Part shown: positions 49,349 through 63,227 of the stretch, in pieces
How the letters are laid out: every line of letters begins with the position of its first letter
How positions within the stretch are numbered: position 1 is the first letter of the stretch
Source of the DNA: Nocardia vinacea
GTDB taxonomy: Bacteria > Actinomycetota > Actinomycetes > Mycobacteriales > Mycobacteriaceae
Length of the DNA stretch: 64,000 bases
Assembly: GCF_035920345.1 (NCBI RefSeq)
Contig: NZ_CP109149.1
Coordinates: 9,362,001-9,426,000, forward strand
Reading direction: 5' to 3'
Translations under genes and position numbers: made by a program
Notes under the pieces: model-generated
What the model was told of the DNA's origin: nothing
Database searches by the model: none
The model's input: the letters and a program-made list of their open reading frames with translations, nothing else

Positions 49349-51121
49349 ATGACGACGACCGACCTGGACTCGGCCGCGACGCGGCGGATCGTGCGCAGCG
49401 GCGAATTCGATATCGCCGTCTTCGAGTACGGCGACCCGAGCGCGGAAACCATTGTGCTGGTGCATGGTTGGCCGGACACGCACCATCTCTGGAATGCGGT
49501 GGTGCCACTGCTGACCGACCGCTTCCACGTCGTCACCTACGACACCCGCGGCCACGGTGAATCCACCCGCACTCGGCGCGCCCAAGATTTCCGCCTGGAT
49601 GCGCTGGCCGGTGATTTCTTCGCCGTCGCCGACGCGGTCAGCCCGGATCGGCCGGTGCACGTCCTTGCGCACGACTGGGGTTCGGTGCAGGTGTGGGAGG
49701 CGGTGTGCGAACCGCAGGCCGCGGCCCGGGTCGCCTCGTTCACCTCGGTCTCCGGGCCGAACCTGGACCATCTCGCGAAGTGGGTGCGCGCCAGGCTGTC
49801 CCGGCCTACGCCGCGCAATCTGTGGCAGCCACTCACCCAGGCGCTGTCATCGGGATACACGGTGTTCTCCATGACACCGGGGCTCGATCAGATCTTCCGG
49901 GTTGTCGCGCACGAAAAGCGTTGGCAGCGCATCGTTTCGATCATGAACGACACCGCGCCGTCGAATATCGTGCTCGGCCCGACGTTCCGTCGCGACGCCA
50001 TAGAAGGCCTGCTCATCTACCGTGCCAATATCCTGCCGCGAATGCTCGCGCCGCGAGAGCGCCGCACCGAGGTGCCTGTGCAGTTGATCGTCGCCGGTCG
50101 CGATGTCGCGGTACGGCCCGCGGGCTATGACGATGGGCGCAAATGGGTTTCGCGGCTGTGGCGCCGCGATGTGCCCGCCGGACATTGGATGCCGTTCTCC
50201 CATCCCGAATTGCTTGCCACCGCGACCACCGAGCTCATCGACGCGGTCACTAGTGGTGTGGCGCCGCGCGGGCTGCGTCGCGCCGAAATCGGGCGCAGCC
50301 GAAAACCATTCGAGGATCAGCTCGTGGTGATCACCGGCGGCGGCAGCGGTATCGGTCGCGAGACGGGCCTGGCATTCGCGCGGCTCGGTGCGGAAATCGT
50401 GCTGTCGGATATCAATCTGGGCGCGGCCAAGGAAACGCGGGAGCTGATTGCCGCCGAAGGCGGTGTGGCGCATGCCTATCAGCTCGATGTTTCCGATGAG
50501 GAAGCGGTGCACCTGCATGCGGTCGAGGTGCTCGCCGCGCACGGCGTGCCCGACATTCTGATCAACAATGCCGGAATCGGGCAGGCCGGTGGGTTCTTCG
50601 ATACGCCGTCGGCGGAGTTCGATCGGGTCATGCGGATCAATCTCGGCGGCGTGGTCAATGGCTGCCGTGCCTTCGGTTCGCTGATGGCCGAGCGCGGACT
50701 CGGCGGACACATCGTCAACCTGTCCAGCATGGCGGCCTACAGTCCGCAGCAGGGGTTCAGCGCATACTCCACCAGTAAGTCGGCGGTATTCATGTTCTCC
50801 GACTGCCTGCGTGCGGAACTGGCCGGGCGCGGCATCTCCGTGCACACCATCTGCCCCGGCATCGTGCACACCAATATCGTTGCCACCACCAGATTTTCGG
50901 GTGTCAGCGCGGAGGAGGAGCAGCGCAAGCAGGAGCGGTACGACAAGCTGTACCAGGCGCGGCGCTACGGTCCGGAGAAGGTGGCCGCGCAGATCGTGCG
51001 CGCGGTCGAACGGGATCGCAGCATCGTGCCGGTCACCCCGGAGGCGCGGCTGCAGTACCAGCTCAACAAGTTCGCCCCGGCGGTGGTGCGGTTCTTCGCC
51101 GCACGAGTGAAGCTCACCTGA
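49349..51121 (+). CDS. ephD: Epoxide hydrolase/SDR fusion, EphD-like
   Basis: A 590-residue fusion, nearly the length of mycobacterial EphD. The first domain is an alpha/beta hydrolase with HGWPD (39-43), nucleophile Asp109 in AHDWGS and His279 in AGHWMP. The second is an SDR with TGGGSGIG (329-336) and Tyr473/Lys477 in SAYSTSK. EphD has epoxide hydrolase activity and affects mycolic acid pattern. Third gene of the metal-hydrolase/reductase operon. Confidence 0.85.
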   Translation: MTTTDLDSAATRRIVRSGEFDIAVFEYGDPSAETIVLVHGWPDTHHLWNAVVPLLTDRFHVVTYDTRGHGESTRTRRAQDFRLDALAGDFFAVADAVSPDRPVHVLAHDWGSVQVWEAVCEPQAAARVASFTSVSGPNLDHLAKWVRARLSRPTPRNLWQPLTQALSSGYTVFSMTPGLDQIFRVVAHEKRWQRIVSIMNDTAPSNIVLGPTFRRDAIEGLLIYRANILPRMLAPRERRTEVPVQLIVAGRDVAVRPAGYDDGRKWVSRLWRRDVPAGHWMPFSHPELLATATTELIDAVTSGVAPRGLRRAEIGRSRKPFEDQLVVITGGGSGIGRETGLAFARLGAEIVLSDINLGAAKETRELIAAEGGVAHAYQLDVSDEEAVHLHAVEVLAAHGVPDILINNAGIGQAGGFFDTPSAEFDRVMRINLGGVVNGCRAFGSLMAERGLGGHIVNLSSMAAYSPQQGFSAYSTSKSAVFMFSDCLRAELAGRGISVHTICPGIVHTNIVATTRFSGVSAEEEQRKQERYDKLYQARRYGPEKVAAQIVRAVERDRSIVPVTPEARLQYQLNKFAPAVVRFFAARVKLT

Positions 51122-54454: not shown

Positions 54455-54528
54455 GGGGCGGTAGCTCAGTCGGTTAGAGCCGTGGACTCATAATCCATTG
54501 GTCGCGGGTTCGAGCCCCGCCCGCCCCA
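54455..54528 (+). tRNA. tRNA-Met (CAT)
   Basis: The acceptor stem GGGGCGG / CCGCCCC is 7 bp. The D arm is GCTC ... GAGC. The anticodon loop is CTCATAA with anticodon CAT, stem GTGGA / TCCAT. The T arm is GCGGG-TTCGAGC-CCCGC. Discriminator A; no CCA encoded. Elongator Met is most likely; an Ile-decoding CAT tRNA cannot be excluded from sequence alone. It is a plausible attachment site for the integrase downstream. Confidence 0.92.
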
Positions 54529-54633
54529 CAAACCCCTGGTCAGAGGGTTGCAGTCGGTGTTTGGGCCGTGCTTTAACCGCCCAGGTCACCACTTACTCAC
54601 CTTTTTCAAATTGCGGGCACATACTGCTCCCTC

Positions 54634-54673
54634 CAGCTCCCGACACCCTGCCCGGCCAGGGCATCGGGAGCTG
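54634..54673. terminator. Strong hairpin
   Basis: CAGCTCCCGA / TCGGGAGCTG (54634-54643 / 54664-54673) plus inner CCCTG / CAGGG pairs, then GTTGTTT. It ends transcription of the tRNA region and, on the other strand, may end the integrase message. Confidence 0.65.
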
Positions 54674-54728
54674 GTTGTTTGCTAGCCAGTGATGACCGAC
54701 GCCGGGTATCGCTGGTCACTCTCGAGGG

Positions 54729-55943
54729 TCATGTTCGCCTCGTCGTGGCAGTCCCGTCTTGCTCATCCGGGAGAGCGAAGGCCGCGAAGCGATTCCGGGC
54801 GTCTGGACCTTGATGGGTGCGTTGGACGTAGTGCCTTCGTGTCACCGCTTCGGTGTTGCCGAGTTGGGCGGCCGCGACACCGATATCGGATTGCCCGCCG
54901 TCGGCGTCTTCGGCCAGATGCGTGCCGACAGTCTTGCGCGCCGCATGTGGGTTCTGGGGGATTCCCGTGACTCCGATGCGGTCGAGTGCCCGCTGTAGTT
55001 GCTTGCGGGCATTGCGAGGATCGCGCAAGGTCCCTCCTCGGGATGGGAACACGAGATCTTCGGGCTCATGCGGTATCAAGTCACGGCGGGCGGTCAGTCT
55101 CTCTACGGCCCACTCGGGCAGCAGCAGTCGGCGTTTGCCGTTCGGGCCGCCCTTGGGATGCGGTTGGATGATCATCCCGCCGCCGCGTATACGCACGACG
55201 GTCCCCTCAACGAGCACAGTGGGCTTGGTGGCGTCGAGATCGAGATGCTTCCACTTCAACGCCATCGTCTCGCCAATGCGGCATCCGGTGGCCAACAGGA
55301 GATCGACCAGATCGGCGATACCGTTCGCGACGGCGCGCTTGTCGCTACGCAGCCCGCTTCGGATGCGTTGCACCTCGTTGAGCGACCATGCCACAACCGG
55401 TTTGTCTTCGACCTGGATCGGTGCGAGCAGCTTGATGATATTTCCGGCACTGGCGCCGTATCGGCTTGCTAGCGTCCACATTCCGGACAAGCACGTCTTC
55501 GCGAGTTTCGCGGTCGGCCTGCCCACCTGATCGGCGATGTCTTCGAGCAACCCTTCCAGCACCTGAGTGGTGCACTCAGCGATGGTCAGCTTGCCGATTC
55601 TGGGGACGATGTGAAGGTCCAGTATCTCCCCGTATCGGCGTTTGGTGTTCGCAGACAGCTTGGAGCGCTCGACCTTTATCTGCCATCGCTCGACGAGGCG
55701 GTGCACGAGCGTATCCGCCGTGATTTCGGACTTCGAGGGTGCGACCCGCCGGGCCAGCTTTTCCTCGAGTGCTGCTATGGCCTTGGGCTTAGATTGTCCG
55801 ACCGCCTCCACTTGCCGCAGGGCGCCGTCGAGGTCGCGAAGTCTGGTCTTTGCTATGTGCCGGATCGGTTTTCCGGCTGCATCCCGAACGACTGTAGCGG
55901 TGATCTTCCCGTGCCGTCCGGGCTTGATTCGTTCGCGCGGCAT
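54729..55943 (-). CDS. Tyrosine site-specific integrase
   Basis: A 404-residue phage-type integrase. N-terminal SAM-like core-binding domain (about 75-165). The catalytic domain has Arg222 in GCRIGE, the HxxR pair His333/Arg336 in NPHAARKTV, and Tyr372 in RRHYV. In the usual LGH motif this enzyme has LGN (361-363). It lies 200 bp from a tRNA-Met, the classical location for integration. It probably inserted the island to the right. Confidence 0.87.
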   Translation of the reverse strand: MPRERIKPGRHGKITATVVRDAAGKPIRHIAKTRLRDLDGALRQVEAVGQSKPKAIAALEEKLARRVAPSKSEITADTLVHRLVERWQIKVERSKLSANTKRRYGEILDLHIVPRIGKLTIAECTTQVLEGLLEDIADQVGRPTAKLAKTCLSGMWTLASRYGASAGNIIKLLAPIQVEDKPVVAWSLNEVQRIRSGLRSDKRAVANGIADLVDLLLATGCRIGETMALKWKHLDLDATKPTVLVEGTVVRIRGGGMIIQPHPKGGPNGKRRLLLPEWAVERLTARRDLIPHEPEDLVFPSRGGTLRDPRNARKQLQRALDRIGVTGIPQNPHAARKTVGTHLAEDADGGQSDIGVAAAQLGNTEAVTRRHYVQRTHQGPDARNRFAAFALPDEQDGTATTRRT

Positions 55944-56777
55944 CAGGCATCCCCGCCGTCAGCGCGCGCGACAGCGCGATTATTCATTTGTACTCCCGTA
56001 GATATCAATTCCCGGTGCTAGCCGGTCTTGTGCATTCCAATTCTACTGGGCCACAGCGTTTTACGGAGAATCCGCCAGCGCGACCAAGTCATTGGATTCG
56101 GGTGGACCGTTCGGGGCGTCACCTTCGCTCGGACGGTCCTCTTCTGGACGCTGTGCTGACGGCGCGCTCATCGGCACCTGGCCCAGCCCGATTGGACAAG
56201 CCAACCTCGGATGGATCCGCGGCGGGCGCCATCTGGCCCGCGTCCTGCCATCGGCACCGCTGTGACGCAAGCCGGGCGGACGGCACCGGACAGACCAATA
56301 CTGCGGAATCGAACCCCAAGTCGGGCGATGGTCCCGAACAACCGAGTACTGCGGAAACCCCGGCTGAGTCTGCATCCGGAGCAGACGCTCGATAGTCGTG
56401 TTCGCGAGATCGACTGCTGGCCAAGGACTGTGCGCCGCCGAACGCGCGGATCGTGGTGTTCGAGATTGTCTGTTTATGGCCTGACCGATGGAATCCGCTC
56501 CCTCTGCACGGAAGCGATTGATCAGTGGTGAGTCGATGCGGTGAGGCGTCGCAGGGCCGCGATCGATGAGGGTGGGAAGGGGGATCACGATGATGGCCCT
56601 TGACGACGATACTGGGCTGGTTTCTGTTCATCAGTCGTTCAAGGACAACGCGGTCCTGTGGCTGGCACCTTTGTAGTGAGGGACACCCAGCTGGTGAAAT
56701 CGGTTGTGCCGAGTGCCGGGAATCGGCTGGGGTAGCATCCACGAGTCGGGGTGCTGTCGGGTGAGGGGCCGATCGTT
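55944..56777. other. Gene-poor 834-bp region in the island
   Basis: Open frames on both strands of 100-180 residues exist here, but none shows domain-like patterns or a clean start context. I see no excisionase-type HTH. The stretch just before 56778 may hold the promoter of the TIR gene. Confidence 0.4.
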
Positions 56778-59700
56778 GTGTCACGGGTGTTCATCAGTCA
56801 TTCCAGCCGTGACAACGCCTGGGCGATAGCGGTGAAACAGTGGTTGGTCGAACAGCAGGGGGACCTGGCCCAGGAGATCTTCCTCGACATCGATCCCGAG
56901 ACCGGAATCCATTCCGGGCAGCGCTGGAAGGACGCCCTGCGCGAGGCCAAGGAACGCTGCGAAGCCGTGGTGTGTCTGCTGTCGCGGAACTGGCTGGGCT
57001 CGCGTGAATGCGAAGCCGAGTACCGCGCCGCCGAGTACTTCGGCAAACGCATCTACTCTGCCCAGATCGAAGCGCTGCACGGTAGCGACGACATCACTCG
57101 CGAATGGCAACGCTGTGACCTCTACGGCGACGGCCCACACACCAAGGTCCACATCGGCTCTCGCCGCGAGCCGGTGATGTTGCGCACCACCGGACTGCAA
57201 CAGCTGTTGACCGGATTACGCGCCGCAGGGATCGGCACCGACCATTTTCCGTGGCCACCGGCCGACGAGCCCGACCGCGCACCCTATCGCGGGTGGGATC
57301 CGTACGAACCCGTCGACGCGGCGGTGTTTTTCGGTCGCGACAGCCAGATCCTGCGCGCCATGGACGCACTACGTGCGATGCGCACCGACGGAACCCGGCC
57401 GCTCTTCGTCGTCGTCGGCCCCTCGGGCACCGGCAAGTCGTCCTTCCTGCGGGCCGGGCTGATTCCACGGCTGCGCCGCGACGACCGGCATTTCGTCGCG
57501 CTGGACACCATGCGCCCGGAACGCGGCGCCCTCACCGGCACCCATGGTCTGGCCGTCGCAGTCCACTCCACCCGCAGACGTCTGGGGCGATCCGCTCCGG
57601 ATCTCGGTGACATCAAAACAGCACTCACCGAAAAGAACACCACATTGTTGCGGCAATGGCTGATCGACATCCAACAGGTGGTATCGCGCCGTCTAGTCGA
57701 TGCCACCGCTGAGGCTCCGACGTTGGTGCTGCCCATCGATCAGGCCGAGGAACTGCTGTCTGCGGACGCCGGACCCGAGGGTGCGCGGATGCTGGAGATG
57801 CTCGCGGATCTGCTCACCGGGCCTGTGGGTGAGCGGTTGTCGTTGATCACCGTGTTGACCATGCGCACCGACCGCTACGAACACCTGCGATCGGCCCCGC
57901 AACTGATCGACGTCGAAACGGTGATATTCGACGATCTCAAACCGATGCCGCGCGACCGGTTCCGGGACATCATTACTAGCCCCGCCCGCCGCAGCGCCCG
58001 CCACCTCGATATCGCCCCCGACCTGGTCGACCGGCTGCTGGTCGACTGCGGCGACGGCGCCGACACCCTACCGCTGCTATCACTGACTCTGGGCACCCTC
58101 CACCGCGACTACGGCGGCAGTGGTGAACTCACTCTTGCCCACTACACCAAACTCGGTGGGATCGACAAGGTCGTAGCCACCGAGATCGACAACCTGCTAT
58201 CCAACAATGCCGACACCCGTGACCGCGAACTCGCGCTGCTGCGTTCGGCGTTCATCCCGTTTCTGGCCACCATCGCACCCGACGGTGAGCAGCCGCTGCG
58301 CCGAATCGCCCGCTGGAGCGACCTGCCTCCCGACGCTCGCCCGCTGATCGACCGGTTCGTCGACAGCCGTCTGCTCGTCAAGGATCACCGAATAAACGGC
58401 GGCGACGACAGGGGCTGGGAGACCGTCGTCGAAGTGGCACTGGAAAGCTTGCTGCGGCAATGGGATGACCTTGCGGGATGGCTGCGGGAGGAAGCCGACG
58501 ACCTGCGCACAGCCGAGAACCTGGAACGGGCCGCTGCCGACTGGAGCCGCAACAACTGCGCCCCCGCCTGGCTACTGAGCGGCCCACGCCTGACCGCCGC
58601 CGAGACTCTCGCCCAACGACCCGGCTTCCTCGAACGCCTCGCCACCGTGCGCGACTACCTGACCGCCTCCCGAGAACACGACGATGCTCGCCACGCCGAC
58701 GAACTACGCGAAGCCAAAGCCCACGCCGACGCGTTGCGCAAACGTGCCCGAACACTGATCGCGCTCGCGACCGTCGCCATGCTAGTGGCCGTCACGGCAG
58801 GCTTCTACTACCTCAGCGCCAATGCCGCCAAACGCCACGCCACAAACCTCGCCGCCACAAACCTCGCCGCGCGCCTGGTCCAAGACGCCCAACAGCAACT
58901 CACCACCGGCCACGACGAGCGCCGCGGCGTGTTGGAAACCCTCGCCGCACAAGCCCTCTCACCCGCCACCACCATGACCGCACTGCTCGCCGCGCAGTAC
59001 CAGATCCAGAACATCCCAAAGATCGTTGATGTCCGCCCCAAACCCGACACTCTGGCGGTCAGCCCGGACGGACGCTGGATGGTCGCGGGCTATTCCACGG
59101 GCGTTGTGCGGGTTTGGGACATGAGCTCCGCCGCCGGGCCGCGCGTGCTCACCGGCACCGACGCCAAATGGGTCGCGGCTGTGGCGGTCAGCCCGGACGG
59201 ACGCTGGGTGATCGCCAGCGACGGCCCGGGTGTTGTGCGGGTTTGGGACATGAACTCCGCCGCCGGGCCGCGCGTGCTCACCGGCACCGGCAACAAACCA
59301 GTCGATACTGTGGCGCTCAGTCCGGACGGGCGCTGGGTCGTCGCAGGCGATCGCGCAGGTGTCGTGCGGGTTTGGGACACGAGCTCCGCCGCCGGGCCGC
59401 GCGCCCTCACCGGCACCGGCAACGACCGGGTCGCGTCTGTGGCGGTTAGTCCGGACGGGCGCTGGGTGGTCGCAGGCGATGGCGCGCCAGATGGTGGTGC
59501 GGGCGTGGTGCGGGCTTGGGACCTGGACTCCGCCGCCGGGCCGCGCGTGCTAACCGACACTGACACCAAATGGGTCACAGCTGTAGCGGTCAGCCCGGAC
59601 GGACGCTGGGTGATCGCCGGCGGTACCGGGGGTGCGGTGCGGGTTTGGGACACCTACTCCACTACCGGCCCAAGGCTCCTCGCCGGCACCGAGCGTCTTA

Positions 59701-60944
59701 CGTCTTTCACAGTCGATGCTGTGGCGGTCAGTCCGGACGGGCGCTGGGTGGTCGGTGGCGGGGGGCTCGGTGTGATACACGTCTGGGACATGAGCTCCTC
59801 CGCTGGGCCGCGCGTCCTCACCCGCACGGGCAGGGACCAGGTTGCGGCTGTGGCGGTTAGTCCGGACGGGCGTTGGGTGGTCGCCGGCAATGTCGCGGGC
59901 GTGGTGCGGGTTTGGGACATGAGTTCCATCATCAGCGGGCGACGCGCCCTCCCCGAGGGCATCGGATCTTTCGACGCTGCGGTCAGTCCGGACGGGCGCT
60001 GGGTGGTCGCCCGCGATGGCACGGGCATCCTGCGGGTTTGGGACACAAGTTCCGCCGCCGGGCCGCGTGTGCTCACCGACACCAAGTGGCTCGGCACTGT
60101 GGCGCTCAGTCCGGGCGGGCGCTGGGTGGTCGCGGGAGACAACGAGGGCGGTGTACGGGTTTGGGACATGAGTTCCGCCGTTGGGCCGCGTGCCCTCCCT
60201 GGCACCGGTACCGAGCCGGTCAACGCCGCAGTGGTCAGCCTCGACGGGTACCGAGTGGTCACCGACGATGATGTGGGCGTGGTGCGGGTGTGGGACACGC
60301 GTTCCGCCGCTGGGCCGCGTGTCCTCCCCGACATCGAGCACCGCGGCCCTTTGGCGCTCAGTCCGGACGGGCGTTGGCTGGTTGCCGGCGATCTCGACGG
60401 TGCGGTGCGGGTTTGGGACTTGAGTTCGGCCACCATCGGACAACGTAACCTCCCCGGGGTCGGCACCGATTCGGTAGATGCGGTGGCGGTCAGTCCGGAC
60501 GGGCGCTGGGTGGTCGCAGGCGATAGTAAGGGCGCGGTGCGGGTTTGGGACTTGAGTTCGGCCACCATCGGACAACGTAACCTCCCCGGGGTCGGCACCG
60601 GTTCAGCAGATGCGGTGGCGGTCAGTGCGGACGGGCGCTGGGTGGCCGCTGCCGATTTGGAGGCGATCCGGGTCTGGAGCACTGACTCGAACCAGAACGG
60701 GGTCGCTGTGGCAGACCAGAACATGGGCAGTATCAAAGGGCTCGCGTTCGATCCCCGAAATCCGTCGATCAGCGCCGTGTCAAGGGATGGCCTCGTCGCG
60801 GTGTACCCGCTCGCTCCGGACCCGAAGATCTTGTGTTCCAGGCTGACAACGACGATGAGCAAAACCGAATGGGACGATTGGGTGACACCGGACCTGCCGC
60901 CCGCCCGGCTGTGCGACGGCCTGGAACCACCGACCCGCAACTGA
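56778..60944 (+). CDS. TIR / STAND NTPase / TM / WD40 NLR-like protein
   Basis: A 1388-residue protein. Residues 1-140 are a TIR domain: RVFISHSSRDN, FLDIDPETG, VVCLLSRNWLGS and Glu79/Glu81 in ECEAEY at the place of the catalytic Glu of NADase TIRs. A STAND NTPase follows: FFGRDSQ near 184, Walker A GPSGTGKS (214-221), Walker B PIDQAEE with Asp321, and a helical arm region to about 600. A charged helix and one membrane helix (about 657-680) come next. From about 752 on there are 13 clear and one weak WD40 repeat, enough for two seven-bladed propellers. The GTG at 56778 has GAGGGG nine bases upstream; GTG 56751 adds nine residues. It is in an island after a tRNA integrase and 43 bp before a SLATT-type gene. 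Likely an NLR-type sensor with TIR effector. Function is inferred. Confidence 0.85.
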   Translation: MSRVFISHSSRDNAWAIAVKQWLVEQQGDLAQEIFLDIDPETGIHSGQRWKDALREAKERCEAVVCLLSRNWLGSRECEAEYRAAEYFGKRIYSAQIEALHGSDDITREWQRCDLYGDGPHTKVHIGSRREPVMLRTTGLQQLLTGLRAAGIGTDHFPWPPADEPDRAPYRGWDPYEPVDAAVFFGRDSQILRAMDALRAMRTDGTRPLFVVVGPSGTGKSSFLRAGLIPRLRRDDRHFVALDTMRPERGALTGTHGLAVAVHSTRRRLGRSAPDLGDIKTALTEKNTTLLRQWLIDIQQVVSRRLVDATAEAPTLVLPIDQAEELLSADAGPEGARMLEMLADLLTGPVGERLSLITVLTMRTDRYEHLRSAPQLIDVETVIFDDLKPMPRDRFRDIITSPARRSARHLDIAPDLVDRLLVDCGDGADTLPLLSLTLGTLHRDYGGSGELTLAHYTKLGGIDKVVATEIDNLLSNNADTRDRELALLRSAFIPFLATIAPDGEQPLRRIARWSDLPPDARPLIDRFVDSRLLVKDHRINGGDDRGWETVVEVALESLLRQWDDLAGWLREEADDLRTAENLERAAADWSRNNCAPAWLLSGPRLTAAETLAQRPGFLERLATVRDYLTASREHDDARHADELREAKAHADALRKRARTLIALATVAMLVAVTAGFYYLSANAAKRHATNLAATNLAARLVQDAQQQLTTGHDERRGVLETLAAQALSPATTMTALLAAQYQIQNIPKIVDVRPKPDTLAVSPDGRWMVAGYSTGVVRVWDMSSAAGPRVLTGTDAKWVAAVAVSPDGRWVIASDGPGVVRVWDMNSAAGPRVLTGTGNKPVDTVALSPDGRWVVAGDRAGVVRVWDTSSAAGPRALTGTGNDRVASVAVSPDGRWVVAGDGAPDGGAGVVRAWDLDSAAGPRVLTDTDTKWVTAVAVSPDGRWVIAGGTGGAVRVWDTYSTTGPRLLAGTERLTSFTVDAVAVSPDGRWVVGGGGLGVIHVWDMSSSAGPRVLTRTGRDQVAAVAVSPDGRWVVAGNVAGVVRVWDMSSIISGRRALPEGIGSFDAAVSPDGRWVVARDGTGILRVWDTSSAAGPRVLTDTKWLGTVALSPGGRWVVAGDNEGGVRVWDMSSAVGPRALPGTGTEPVNAAVVSLDGYRVVTDDDVGVVRVWDTRSAAGPRVLPDIEHRGPLALSPDGRWLVAGDLDGAVRVWDLSSATIGQRNLPGVGTDSVDAVAVSPDGRWVVAGDSKGAVRVWDLSSATIGQRNLPGVGTGSADAVAVSADGRWVAAADLEAIRVWSTDSNQNGVAVADQNMGSIKGLAFDPRNPSISAVSRDGLVAVYPLAPDPKILCSRLTTTMSKTEWDDWVTPDLPPARLCDGLEPPTRN
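59061..60760 (+). repeat. Near-identical WD40-coding repeats
   Basis: Start points of the (A/L)SPDGRW codons fall at 59061, 59190, 59319, 59448, 59592, 59730, 59859, 59985, 60108, 60237, 60360, 60492 and 60624, with a degenerate 14th unit near 60747. Spacing is mostly 129 bp (123-144). Neighbouring units are strongly similar in DNA, and the linkers at about 60420 and 60549 are identical over 50 bases. Indicates recent unit duplication or recombination inside the gene. Confidence 0.85.
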
Positions 60945-60987
60945 GGAAAACCGAACCCGCCCCATAAAGCCATGAGAAAGGCACAGC

Positions 60988-61431
60988 GTGGTAGTGCAAA
61001 CCGAGGCCACGACTACCGACCCAGTGTGGCAGCGGCTGACCGATCAGATCGCCTGGTACAGCACTCGGAGCCGATCGGCACAACGGGCATACAAGCTGGT
61101 CAAACTCGCTCAGGTCGTCATCGGTGCCACCGTCCCCGTCATCGCAGCTTTGCAGGCCCCCGCAGCCGTGACGGCATCGGTAGCCGCAGTCGTGGTGGCA
61201 GCCGAAGGAGTTCAACAACTGTTCCAGTGGCACGAGAACTGGCTGAACTACCGCTCCACAGCAGAAGCGTTGAAGCACGAACGGCTCATGTACCTGGCCG
61301 AATCGGGTCCGTATACAAGACCCAACCGGAGGAAGATCCTTGTGCAACGGATAGAAAGCATTGCAGCACAAGAGAATACAGAGTGGAAGTCGGTGCACGC
61401 CGAAAGCGACAAAGACACAGACAATTCGTAG
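60988..61431 (+). CDS. SLATT/DUF4231-type two-helix membrane protein
   Basis: A 147-residue protein. The N-terminal WQRLTDQIAWYSTRSRSAQR is the pattern of the DUF4231/SLATT group (Trp, then WY pair before a basic helix). Two hydrophobic helices follow (about 38-58 and 60-78). A conserved QWHENWLNYRSTAEALKHE leads into a polar tail. SLATT proteins are predicted pore-forming effectors in nucleotide-signal immune systems. GTG start with AGAAAGG upstream. 43 bp after the TIR gene and in the same direction, so they form an operon. Confidence 0.78.
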   Translation: MVVQTEATTTDPVWQRLTDQIAWYSTRSRSAQRAYKLVKLAQVVIGATVPVIAALQAPAAVTASVAAVVVAAEGVQQLFQWHENWLNYRSTAEALKHERLMYLAESGPYTRPNRRKILVQRIESIAAQENTEWKSVHAESDKDTDNS

Positions 61432-61860
61432 CAGACAAGAACGGTCGAGAGGCAGACCGTTATTCCCGTTCGCGTGATGATGGTCGCTTCCGGAATGCGT
61501 ATGAGGCACTACAGGGCAATCCGAAGGCAGGTCGCATTGCTTGCACGGCTCAAGGGAGTTGTGTCGTCGCACGCAGCCAGCCCTTCCAGCTGAGCCGCTC
61601 AACGGGCCATGACCGTCATCCGGTAATCGGCTACCGCGTGTTCCGGATGGCAGCATCGGTGTCGGTTCATGACCTCGTATCGCTTTCCTTTGATGAGTGA
61701 GGCTGCCGCCGCCCCAGTTCCGTTTCCGTGGGCCTGCCGCACGGATCGTCGGAGAAGCATCGGCTCGTTGTCTTCGTGAGTGTCGTGACTCGAGTGAGAT
61801 AGGTTTTCTGGGCTGGAGTGGTGAGGTTTCCGCTCGCCAGTTGGACCAGGAGGGGACAGC
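61432..61860. other. 429-bp region without a supported gene
   Basis: Short frames on both strands lack domain features. A clean RBS AGGAGGGG directly before 61861 belongs to the TPR gene. I cannot tell whether the TPR gene has its own promoter here. Confidence 0.4.
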
Positions 61861-62628
61861 GTGTTGGAACCGTTCAAACGGGCAGCGGCCGCTCTGAGCC
61901 GGCGCTTTAAGGGCACGGCGAGCGGGACCGCGGCCAGTTCTGGTGAGGCCGATCCCGTCTCGCTGATGGAAGAACTTCTGCCACTGCAGGAGCAAAGCCT
62001 CGGTCACGACCACCCGGACACCAACGAGACGCGCGATCGTCTCGCCGACGCTTATCATCGGGCAGGGCGGGGGGATGACGAAGTTCCGCTTTTGAAGCAG
62101 CTTCTGGCGTACCGGGAGCGGGTCCTCGGTCACGATCACCACGACACCAACGCCGTTCACAATCGACTCGGCGGCACCTATATGTCGCTGAGTCGATGGG
62201 ACGAAGCCATTCCGCACTTCGAACAACTTCTCGCGTATCGCGAGAAAATGTTCGGGCCCGAGGTGTATTCCGTGGTGGGCGCTCGCCGCGTGCTTGGCGT
62301 GGCGTGCTACCGGGCGTGCCGATATGCCGAGGCCGTCGCGTTGTTCGAACGGAACCTGACGTACGTCGACAGAGGCGGCGCCGAGACCTACGAAGATCGT
62401 TGCAATCTCGCTGCCGCCTATGAGGCTGCGGGTCGCTGGGATCAGGCGATCCCGTTGTATGAAGAGCTCCTGACTTACCGGGAACAGCTTGTCGGGCACA
62501 ATGATCCCTTCGCGCAGCGCGCCCGCGACGACCTCGTTCGCGTGTACCGGTCGGCGGACCGACCCGACGAGGCTGCCGCCTTGTCCGAAGCAGGACCGCA
62601 CCGACGGCCCTCGTCGACACAGGAGTGA
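61861..62628 (+). CDS. TPR-repeat protein
   Basis: A 255-residue protein. From about residue 33 it has five tandem TPR-like units of about 43 residues in the kinesin-light-chain style (HDHPDTNETRDRLADAYHRAGR, then equivalents ending in RWDEAI and RWDQAIPLYEELL). It lacks membrane segments and enzymatic domains. Such arrays bind partner proteins. Position in the island suggests an adaptor or regulator of the TIR/STAND system; that is inference. Confidence 0.72.
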   Translation: MLEPFKRAAAALSRRFKGTASGTAASSGEADPVSLMEELLPLQEQSLGHDHPDTNETRDRLADAYHRAGRGDDEVPLLKQLLAYRERVLGHDHHDTNAVHNRLGGTYMSLSRWDEAIPHFEQLLAYREKMFGPEVYSVVGARRVLGVACYRACRYAEAVALFERNLTYVDRGGAETYEDRCNLAAAYEAAGRWDQAIPLYEELLTYREQLVGHNDPFAQRARDDLVRVYRSADRPDEAAALSEAGPHRRPSSTQE

Positions 62629-63227
62629 CGGCATCTCGAACTTGCACGGGGGCGGTGCGGCACGTCGAGACTTTCCGCACTACGTGCACGTCCGGAGTGT
62701 TCGTCGTTGGCGCATGCGAAAACCTGGAATCGGCATGTGGGCGCGTTCGGCCACAGGTCGAGTTCCGTTGCGGGACAATAGTTCAGAAACCTCTCACCGA
62801 CCGCTCAACGGCATGGCCGTGCATTCTCTCGGGGCTAGTACTGCAACGGCACTCGGTTCGGTAGTGTGCTGGGGGCGGTGTTGGATGTTATTGCGGCGGA
62901 GTTGGATTCGCTGTGTGGGAGGATCGGTGGCCGTTCGCGCGGTCGAAGCCGCGGGGCCGGGCGCGGGGTAGATGGCCGGGTTGGATCGGAAAGGTCCAAG
63001 TGTCGTGTCCCGGCGTGTTCCTCTTGGCCACGCCCGCAGATTTCCCGGCTACGCAATCGCACGGCAACCCATCAGGCGCGACTGCCTCGCACTCGATGGG
63101 TTGCCCGTCAGTACCGGCGTCATCAGCCACGTTCACCAGCATTCGATGCCTGGCAGTTGGCCGGCGATGCTCAGCGATTCGGCGATCTCGGCATGGGCTT
63201 GTCTGGGGGAGCGACCGAAAACGGGCC
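62629..63227. other. Gene-poor right part of the island
   Basis: No intact gene is supported over 599 bp. The segment around 62837 (TACTGCAACGGCA) and the next 160 bp resemble the left end of an IS701-type element. The rest has short frames only. No copy of the tRNA 3' end was seen here. Confidence 0.4.
62878..62994 (+). pseudogene. Remnant of an IS701-type transposase N-terminus
   Basis: Read with two frame changes, this stretch gives VLDVIAAELDSLCGRIGGR, then FARSKPRGRARG, a stop, then MAGLDRKG. That follows the N-terminal pattern of IS701-family transposases (LCARIGHRFARAEPRRRA ... LLGLLSPVERKN). No catalytic domain follows. Confidence 0.5.

Follow-up and report, generated by a model that had tools for sequence, protein, structure and literature searches.

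Why does a mobile island of Nocardia vinacea carry a large receptor-like gene directly in front of a small membrane-protein gene, and do the two products work together? We asked this question of a 64,000-bp stretch of DNA (the window; positions 9,362,001 to 9,426,000 of NZ_CP109149.1, the one 10.36-Mb contig of the source genome), in which a tRNA-Met island carries a receptor gene with predicted TIR, nSTAND1, transmembrane (TM) and WD40 parts, followed by a gene of the SLATT type. On balance, we favor a two-gene defense module resembling the nucleotide-binding leucine-rich repeat receptors (NLRs), in which the TIR domain would make an ADP-ribose (ADPR)-type signal and an interchangeable partner protein, a SLATT pore in this case, would respond to it. 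The proposal builds on the domain assignments, the conservation of catalytic-type residues, the TIR fold, the TM helices that are predicted, the island, and the TIR-SLATT linkage and partner swapping described below, and from these we infer NADase activity, a signal, a receiver, pore formation and defense.

The N-terminus of the receptor is assigned by profile and model to the TIR domain superfamily. Pfam TIR_2 covers residues 4-87 (E 2.7e-12; residues are counted from position 56778, with Pfam coordinates shifted by 9), and the AlphaFold model resembles the TIRs of SPARTA, SARM1 and SpbK, with SPARTA and SARM1 closest and SpbK as the top-ranked Foldseek match. A sequence search of TIR plus STAND against the PDB gave no match, and profile matches to solved TIRs were weak (best E 0.005, to MyD88), so that the fold assignment draws on Pfam and the AlphaFold2 (AF2) model. 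The conserved glutamate of TIR domains has a catalytic role, and Glu81, invariant in 30 of 30 aligned sequences, appears by conservation to be the catalytic-type residue here. The predicted NTPase contains a Walker A motif (GPSGTGKSS, residues 214-222) and a Walker B-like DQAEEL from residue 321, the key residues of these motifs being the same in all 16 sequences compared, and the propeller region comprises 13 clear SPDGRW-type units and one degenerate unit recognized by eye, followed by a tail that holds Cys1353 and Cys1379. A sequence-only reading that preceded this analysis had described the tRNA-Met, the tyrosine integrase, a tRNA-Met island, a 1388-residue TIR-STAND-TM protein with 14 WD40 units and a SLATT-type gene 43 bp further on, all of which the annotation bears out, and its N-terminal placement of TIR and STAND agrees with the profiles (Table 1); of the two glutamates that it had singled out, Glu79 and Glu81, the former is not invariant and only the latter stands.

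The membrane topology of the receptor can be approached through its relatives. Among 72 homologues of at least 1100 amino acids (aa), hydropathy places a hydrophobic stretch after STAND in 71, the N side of that stretch carries the greater positive charge in 64 of these 71, and exactly two cysteines lie in the last 60 residues of 65, with no other cysteine after the TM stretch in 45. The charge bias and the cysteine pattern fit propellers outside the membrane, but prove nothing. That these proteins constitute a distinct, membrane-anchored NLR class, with propellers outside, TIR-STAND inside and an ADPR-type messenger to which exchangeable receivers would respond, is a possibility that we hold only tentatively.

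The gene that begins 43 bp after the receptor stop belongs, by profile and model, to SLATT_1. Hydropathy finds two hydrophobic stretches, and the AF2 model (predicted local distance difference test score 84.5) is a hairpin of long helices (residues 12-54 and 58-104) with an additional C-terminal helix. In the near relative G672, DNA similarity to the window runs in pieces over 56745-60939 and again over 60972-61449, the receptor and SLATT, and then ends; the TIR there is 85% identical to that of the window. The same locus (L298:10271-10701) has SLATT split in two pieces beside an intact receptor frame, and in G709 SLATT is intact and 83% identical. Conservation of the SLATT-region DNA reaches 61449 with L298 and 61423 with L299.

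Table 1. Features of the receptor-SLATT pair and of the island that carries it, in window coordinates.
Feature	Position	Strand	Evidence or remark
Receptor, TIR-nSTAND1-TM-WD40 (predicted domains), 1388 aa	56778..60944	+	GTG start at 56778; upstream start 56751 possible
TIR domain (predicted), residues 1-150	56778..57227	+	invariant Glu81
nSTAND1 NTPase (predicted), residues 169-594	57282..58559	+	Pfam E 6.5e-71, 240 bits vs cut-off 27.1
Single TM helix (predicted), residues 659-677	58752..58808	+	hydropathy
14 WD40 units	59010..60812	+	Pfam WD40 E 4.3e-55; repeat period 41-48 aa
SLATT_1 protein with two predicted TM helices, 147 aa	60988..61431	+	Pfam DUF4231 E 5.2e-26; NCBIfam SLATT_1 120.7 bits vs cut-off 41
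TPR protein, judged outside the module	61861..62628	+	starts 429 bp after the SLATT stop
tRNA-Met, island integration site	54455..54529	+	ARAGORN
attL	54487..54536	+	50-bp exact direct repeat of the tRNA 3' half
Island tyrosine integrase	54729..55943	-	Pfam Phage_integrase, E 3.2e-11
attR	80273-80322 (G000:C1:9442273-9442322)		copy of the attL repeat; outside the window

The sequence-only reading had also counted the TPR protein as a third partner. The gene is real, but we rejected the trio because of its lack of homologues at other receptor loci and the gap that separates it from SLATT. At E<=1e-20, the other 98 loci of the six-frame set contain no TPR homologue, nor was one found in the stretches fetched around the pair in Nocardia donostiensis (L299, L300) and in the nearest relatives, G672 (L298) and G709. 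Across 118 Nocardia genomes, the protein has 19 other matches at E<=1e-25, none of them on a contig with a listed receptor or SLATT match and all but one in frames of at least 693 aa. Since DNA conservation covers receptor and SLATT, and the fetched stretches of G672 and G709 have no TPR homologue, the conserved unit consists of two genes.

Is the pairing of TIR and SLATT more than a local accident? The 118 Nocardia genomes yielded 31 SLATT rows, comprising 19 close matches (at least 52% identity) and 11 distant ones, the two pieces of the broken gene being counted once. TIR_2 lies within 5 kb of 14 of the 19 close matches, one of the 14 being the window SLATT that served as query, against 0.05 expected by chance; two of these linkages are looser (4.8 kb in G652 and 2.7 kb in G644:C46). 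At the level of sequence the linkage is thus strong, and the coupling of receptor to SLATT that the sequence-only reading had suggested recurs in many Nocardia genomes in several orientations. A TIR is near two of the 11 distant Nocardia rows (G634:C126, and G174 below the cut-off). In an order-wide sample of 397 genomes, a TIR lies within 5 kb of two of the four close SLATTs found beyond the family (G376 and G624; the other two are G319 and G429, the latter on a short contig) and of three of the 12 distant ones (G474, G572, G380).

Close Nocardia SLATTs with no TIR_2 nearby are found in several settings. The G709 locus is split over contigs, and a WD40 tail ends 73 bp before its SLATT, which lies at a contig end. 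A second SLATT of G672 precedes a DUF4062-NB-ARC-WD40 protein, another NLR class (L313:7133-11427), and DUF4062 has been called a TIR-like NADase (PMC13174449). The SLATT of G706 directly adjoins an LSDAT/SLOG gene, with a TPR-S gene alongside; this neighborhood (L308:7134-9665) has no TIR_2 within 5 kb. Nothing was recognized by eye in the SLATT neighborhoods of G635 and G640. SLATT also adjoins stand-alone TIR genes (L044, L187, L314), and in two Nocardia genomes a stand-alone TIR of about 421 aa, a PfkB-family kinase (Pfam in L044) and SLATT stand in a row (L044:9480-12111, L314:6648-9283). At a further locus, L188:206-4285, SLATT is flanked by a divergent TIR gene and, on its other side, by a gene that was judged patatin-like only by eye and that the patatin profile did not match; if that gene is real, both partner types would stand beside one TIR.

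Searches of 301 genomes of the family with the TIR-STAND query and with SLATT found receptor homologues (E<=1e-10) in 87 genomes, the match including TIR in 13 (42-57% identity, the window's own copy excluded), and SLATT in six genomes with eight matches. Three of the four closest of these SLATT matches adjoin a TIR-STAND receptor, with divergent transcription in two cases; the remaining one, in G184, forms a row of genes with a PfkB kinase and a stand-alone TIR. From the wider genome scan, covering the best 80 of 423 confirmed stretches, we compiled 90 receptor genes, excluding duplicates (L092, L099, L102, L118, L121, L132, L133) and short or broken genes (L057, L059, L142 and the second piece of L137) and keeping L056 although its N-terminus is not TIR. 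Within 1.5 kb of these 90 genes we found SLATT at 14, patatin at 23, both at none and neither at 53, a count in which L124 is scored as SLATT on the strength of a weak match (E 3.4e-5, at a distance of 864 bp; the tree treats it separately) and L070 as neither because its contig ends, SLATT being present at L299 of the same genome.

SLATT accompanies the receptor in Nocardia (20 of the 90 receptor genes by species name or genus code, 13 with SLATT and none with patatin). In mycobacteria, Arthrobacter and Proteobacteria the partner is patatin, and elsewhere it is an RyR or SLOG/LSDAT protein. SLATT is a single domain at the window, L042, L043, L109 and L123, and a tandem of DUF4231 and SLATT_1 at L051, L052, L083, L090, L094, L117, L119 and L120 (Pfam run on seven of the eight). 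Pfam confirmed patatin at L049, L072, L076 and L081 of the 23, and at L053, 2.7 kb off. It also identified LSDAT_prok (SLOG in TRPM) at three loci (L046, L053 and L145), at distances of 0.1-2.3 kb from the receptor, and RyR at L077 and L104, in a protein of 768 to 780 aa that is membrane-bound as judged by eye. By profile, a relative of this RyR protein adjoins the receptor in L048 and L085 and stands beside patatin, no more than 1.2 kb away from the receptor, at ten loci of mycobacteria (L076, L079, L081, L082, L084, L087, L088, L089, L093, L147), with weaker matches (E 1e-10 to 1e-15) at L050, L072, L073, L078, L091, L095 and L134. A further seven receptor genes, with neither SLATT nor patatin within 1.5 kb, have an RyR or LSDAT gene at most 2.4 kb away.

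Several of these loci hold additional genes. L053:3218-18489 contains patatin, LSDAT, a TM protein and two tandem TIR-nSTAND1-WD40 genes, together with a gene for a third WD40 protein, which is shorter and, judged by eye, resembles a TIR at its N-terminus. In the proteobacterial loci L141, L146 and L149, a protein of about 660 aa precedes the receptor (TPR-S by Pfam in L149), and patatin follows the receptor in L141 and L149. At L043:14502-19501, the receptor of Nocardia aurantia is followed by a row of CHAT-domain, DUF7379 and TPR-looking genes.

Two comparisons concern the association of receptor and partner. SLATT or patatin accompanies 37 of 90 receptors against none of 20 control nSTAND1 genes from the same family search (Fisher p 1.3e-4), a value that overstates independence because the loci are related; the controls are TIR-less by match extent only, and SLATT, patatin, RyR and LSDAT were each absent from all 20 in 12 to 16.6 kb. 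On a tree of 87 receptors (L056, the second gene of L096 and L135 omitted), the five partner labels need 17 changes versus 33.2 in shuffles, and single SLATT alone is without clear clustering (38 of 500 shuffles equally low). The tree, as far as sequence can tell, requires several partner changes, its starred branches alone forcing at least 6 for patatin, 3 for double SLATT and 4 for single SLATT. The partner may lie downstream of the receptor, upstream or divergent from it, and adjacency has therefore been kept or regained.

This pattern suggests a two-part cell-suicide alarm against invaders. We propose that the WD40 propellers would bind a sign of invasion, upon which nSTAND1 would open and oligomerize in an ATP-dependent manner, bringing together TIR domains that, once clustered, would convert NAD+ to an ADPR-type signal. 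The separately encoded SLATT would be the receiver, permeabilizing the membrane on signal binding and leading to cell arrest or death, and in relatives a patatin phospholipase, an RyR-domain protein or an SLOG/LSDAT protein would take the place of SLATT as receiver. We suggest an ADPR-type messenger because the RyR, SLOG and SLATT partners would suit one: RyR domains in phage proteins both bind 2'/3'cADPR and cleave it (PMC13232231), isomers of cADPR activate ThsA, a protein that contains SLOG (PMC11204291), and SLATT is a predicted effector regulated by ADPR derivatives, with TIR plus SLATT pairs occurring in phages (PMC9503650). SLATT as a signal-gated pore is likewise a prediction, drawn from genomic context (PMC7159879, PMC9503650).

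Some observations weigh against this proposal. SLATT has no visible sensor domain besides its helices, and its structure found no match in the PDB at E<1. Of the 90 receptor genes, 53 have neither SLATT nor patatin within 1.5 kb; some of these are cut by contig ends and seven have RyR or LSDAT genes nearby, but many are left with no visible partner, and the receptor may therefore act alone. No TIR_2 lies within 5 kb of 5 of the 19 close and 9 of the 11 distant SLATT matches. Neither collection is independent or unbiased, the 90 receptor loci being mutually related and the SLATT matches being ranked by likeness to a TIR-linked SLATT.

The partnerless receptors also fit an explanation that we judge unlikely but deserving of weight, in which the TIR is itself an effector that drains NAD+, as in TIR-STAND-TPR proteins and SPARTA, and SLATT works alongside it as a second effector, activated through contact with the receptor oligomer rather than by a nucleotide. 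The closest likeness of the TIR model to the SPARTA and SARM1 TIRs and its top Foldseek rank for SpbK would agree with this, and contact would be possible since both proteins have predicted TM helices. It fits less well with the RyR and LSDAT/SLOG partners found elsewhere, domains tied to ADPR-type nucleotides, or with SLATT genes that stand beside stand-alone TIRs. The "two linked effectors" of the sequence-only reading seem to us less likely than a signal maker plus a receiver. Slightly more doubtful is a system that senses envelope damage, kin or development instead of phage, with external propellers triggering programmed death in a filamentous bacterium; the charge bias of the TM stretch and the paired C-terminal cysteines, as in an exported domain with a disulfide, would suit it, and such conflict systems are reported to be preponderant in multicellular prokaryotes (PMC7159879), but the module sits on a mobile island. 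That SLATT is instead a brake or immunity partner keeping the receptor inactive is very improbable, because, although adjacency in varying orientation would suit a regulator too, a phospholipase-type enzyme, patatin, occupies the adjacent place elsewhere and the intact receptor frame beside a broken SLATT in G672 would be impossible under a brake if the receptor were lethal.

The receptor-SLATT pair that we favor as a signal maker and its receiver is carried by the tRNA-Met island, which we recognize by its integrase and by the 50-bp repeat. From the tRNA-Met to the right end of the window, the genes are the integrase, the receptor, SLATT, the TPR gene and a helicase gene truncated by the window end. 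The repeat recurs 25,786 bp downstream, giving an island of about 25.8 kb that extends 16 kb beyond the window. The tRNA-Met lies near an F420-dependent reductase gene in nine of ten regions fetched from relatives, the tenth ending at a contig end, and in the near relative G637 a stretch of DNA 72% identical to the integrase gene lies beside the same tRNA-Met. The left flank is conserved, and to the right of attR the relatives align only in or just past the repeat, so that none shows a clean empty site. A promoter scan found nothing, and there were four terminator-like sites against 3.0 expected, none of them between receptor and SLATT.

Further along the island, L251:11782-14961 (G000:C1) encodes a 1059-aa protein with an NPHP3/AAA-type NTPase and TPR repeats, a second NLR-like gene with WXG100-type genes nearby; a caspase-like N-terminus was guessed by eye and not confirmed by Pfam. 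To the left of the island, at window positions 49349-51121, is a 590-aa fusion of an alpha/beta hydrolase with a short-chain dehydrogenase.

How much of this is new? The sequence-only reading had spoken of an undescribed defense type, which is too broad, since published work already describes TIR-SLATT pairs and TIR-NLR proteins and proposes SLATT as an effector under ADPR regulation (PMC9503650, PMC9122126, PMC7159879). What remains of that claim is the NLR-fused TIR with interchangeable SLATT, patatin, RyR or SLOG partners: a word search of open-licence literature did not find TIR-nSTAND1-WD40 with SLATT, patatin, RyR or LSDAT partners, though the original SLATT study may describe some contexts. 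PADLOC-DB 2.0.0 gave only weak matches for the receptor (spbK on the TIR, E 0.004; mad8, E 0.0086) and a repeat-driven one (HEAT-ARM_XIII on the WD40 repeats, E 1e-21), and no match for SLATT. Matched sets within one receptor family (SLATT, patatin, RyR, SLOG) could show whether one TIR product drives all receivers. Plant TIR-NLRs signal through a messenger, and comparison of the sets would test whether a bacterial TIR-NLR does so too. RyR and TRPM-type SLOG beside a TIR receptor would also bear on the origin of the ligand sites of animal calcium channels. If the membrane-anchored NLR class considered above is real, the sensor stays while the killer is swapped, and one signaling language would link domains used by animal SARM1, TRPM channels and ryanodine receptors.

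Among the nearest published arrangements are the TIR-SLATT pairs of Firmicute phages and the GAP1-N1 systems, which likewise place a TIR next to a two-TM SLATT gene and for which it is also predicted that a nucleotide signal acts on SLATT; there, however, the TIR belongs to a phage gene pair or a GTPase-centered system, whereas the TIR of the window shares one protein with nSTAND1, a TM helix and 14 WD40 units (PMC9503650, PMC7159879). The NTPase shares its Pfam family with the nSTAND1 clade of PMC8195603, which appears there as one of several central NTPases in EAD10-type systems, and that paper's text contains neither SLATT nor patatin by term count. In CBASS, the patatin CapV is a signal-activated membrane effector, as we propose for the patatins of receptor relatives; the signal maker here would be the TIR, and no CD-NTase gene was found among the genes profiled around the pair. 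The TIR-NLR of P4 satellites, which protects E. coli against phage by a proposed direct degradation of NAD+, also joins an N-terminal TIR, a central STAND NTPase and C-terminal repeats in one protein, but it is a single gene with TPR repeats, in contrast to the WD40 repeats and linked, separate membrane partner described here (PMC9122126). Thoeris provides a parallel in proposed logic, since its TIR protein ThsB makes an ADPR-type signal for a second protein, ThsA, as may be the case here (PMC13232231, PMC11204291). No ThsA (SIR2-SLOG or Macro-TM) was found in the profiled subset of open reading frames around the pair, and in contrast to Thoeris, sensor, switch and TIR appear to be united in one polypeptide whose candidate receivers are SLATT, patatin, RyR or SLOG proteins.

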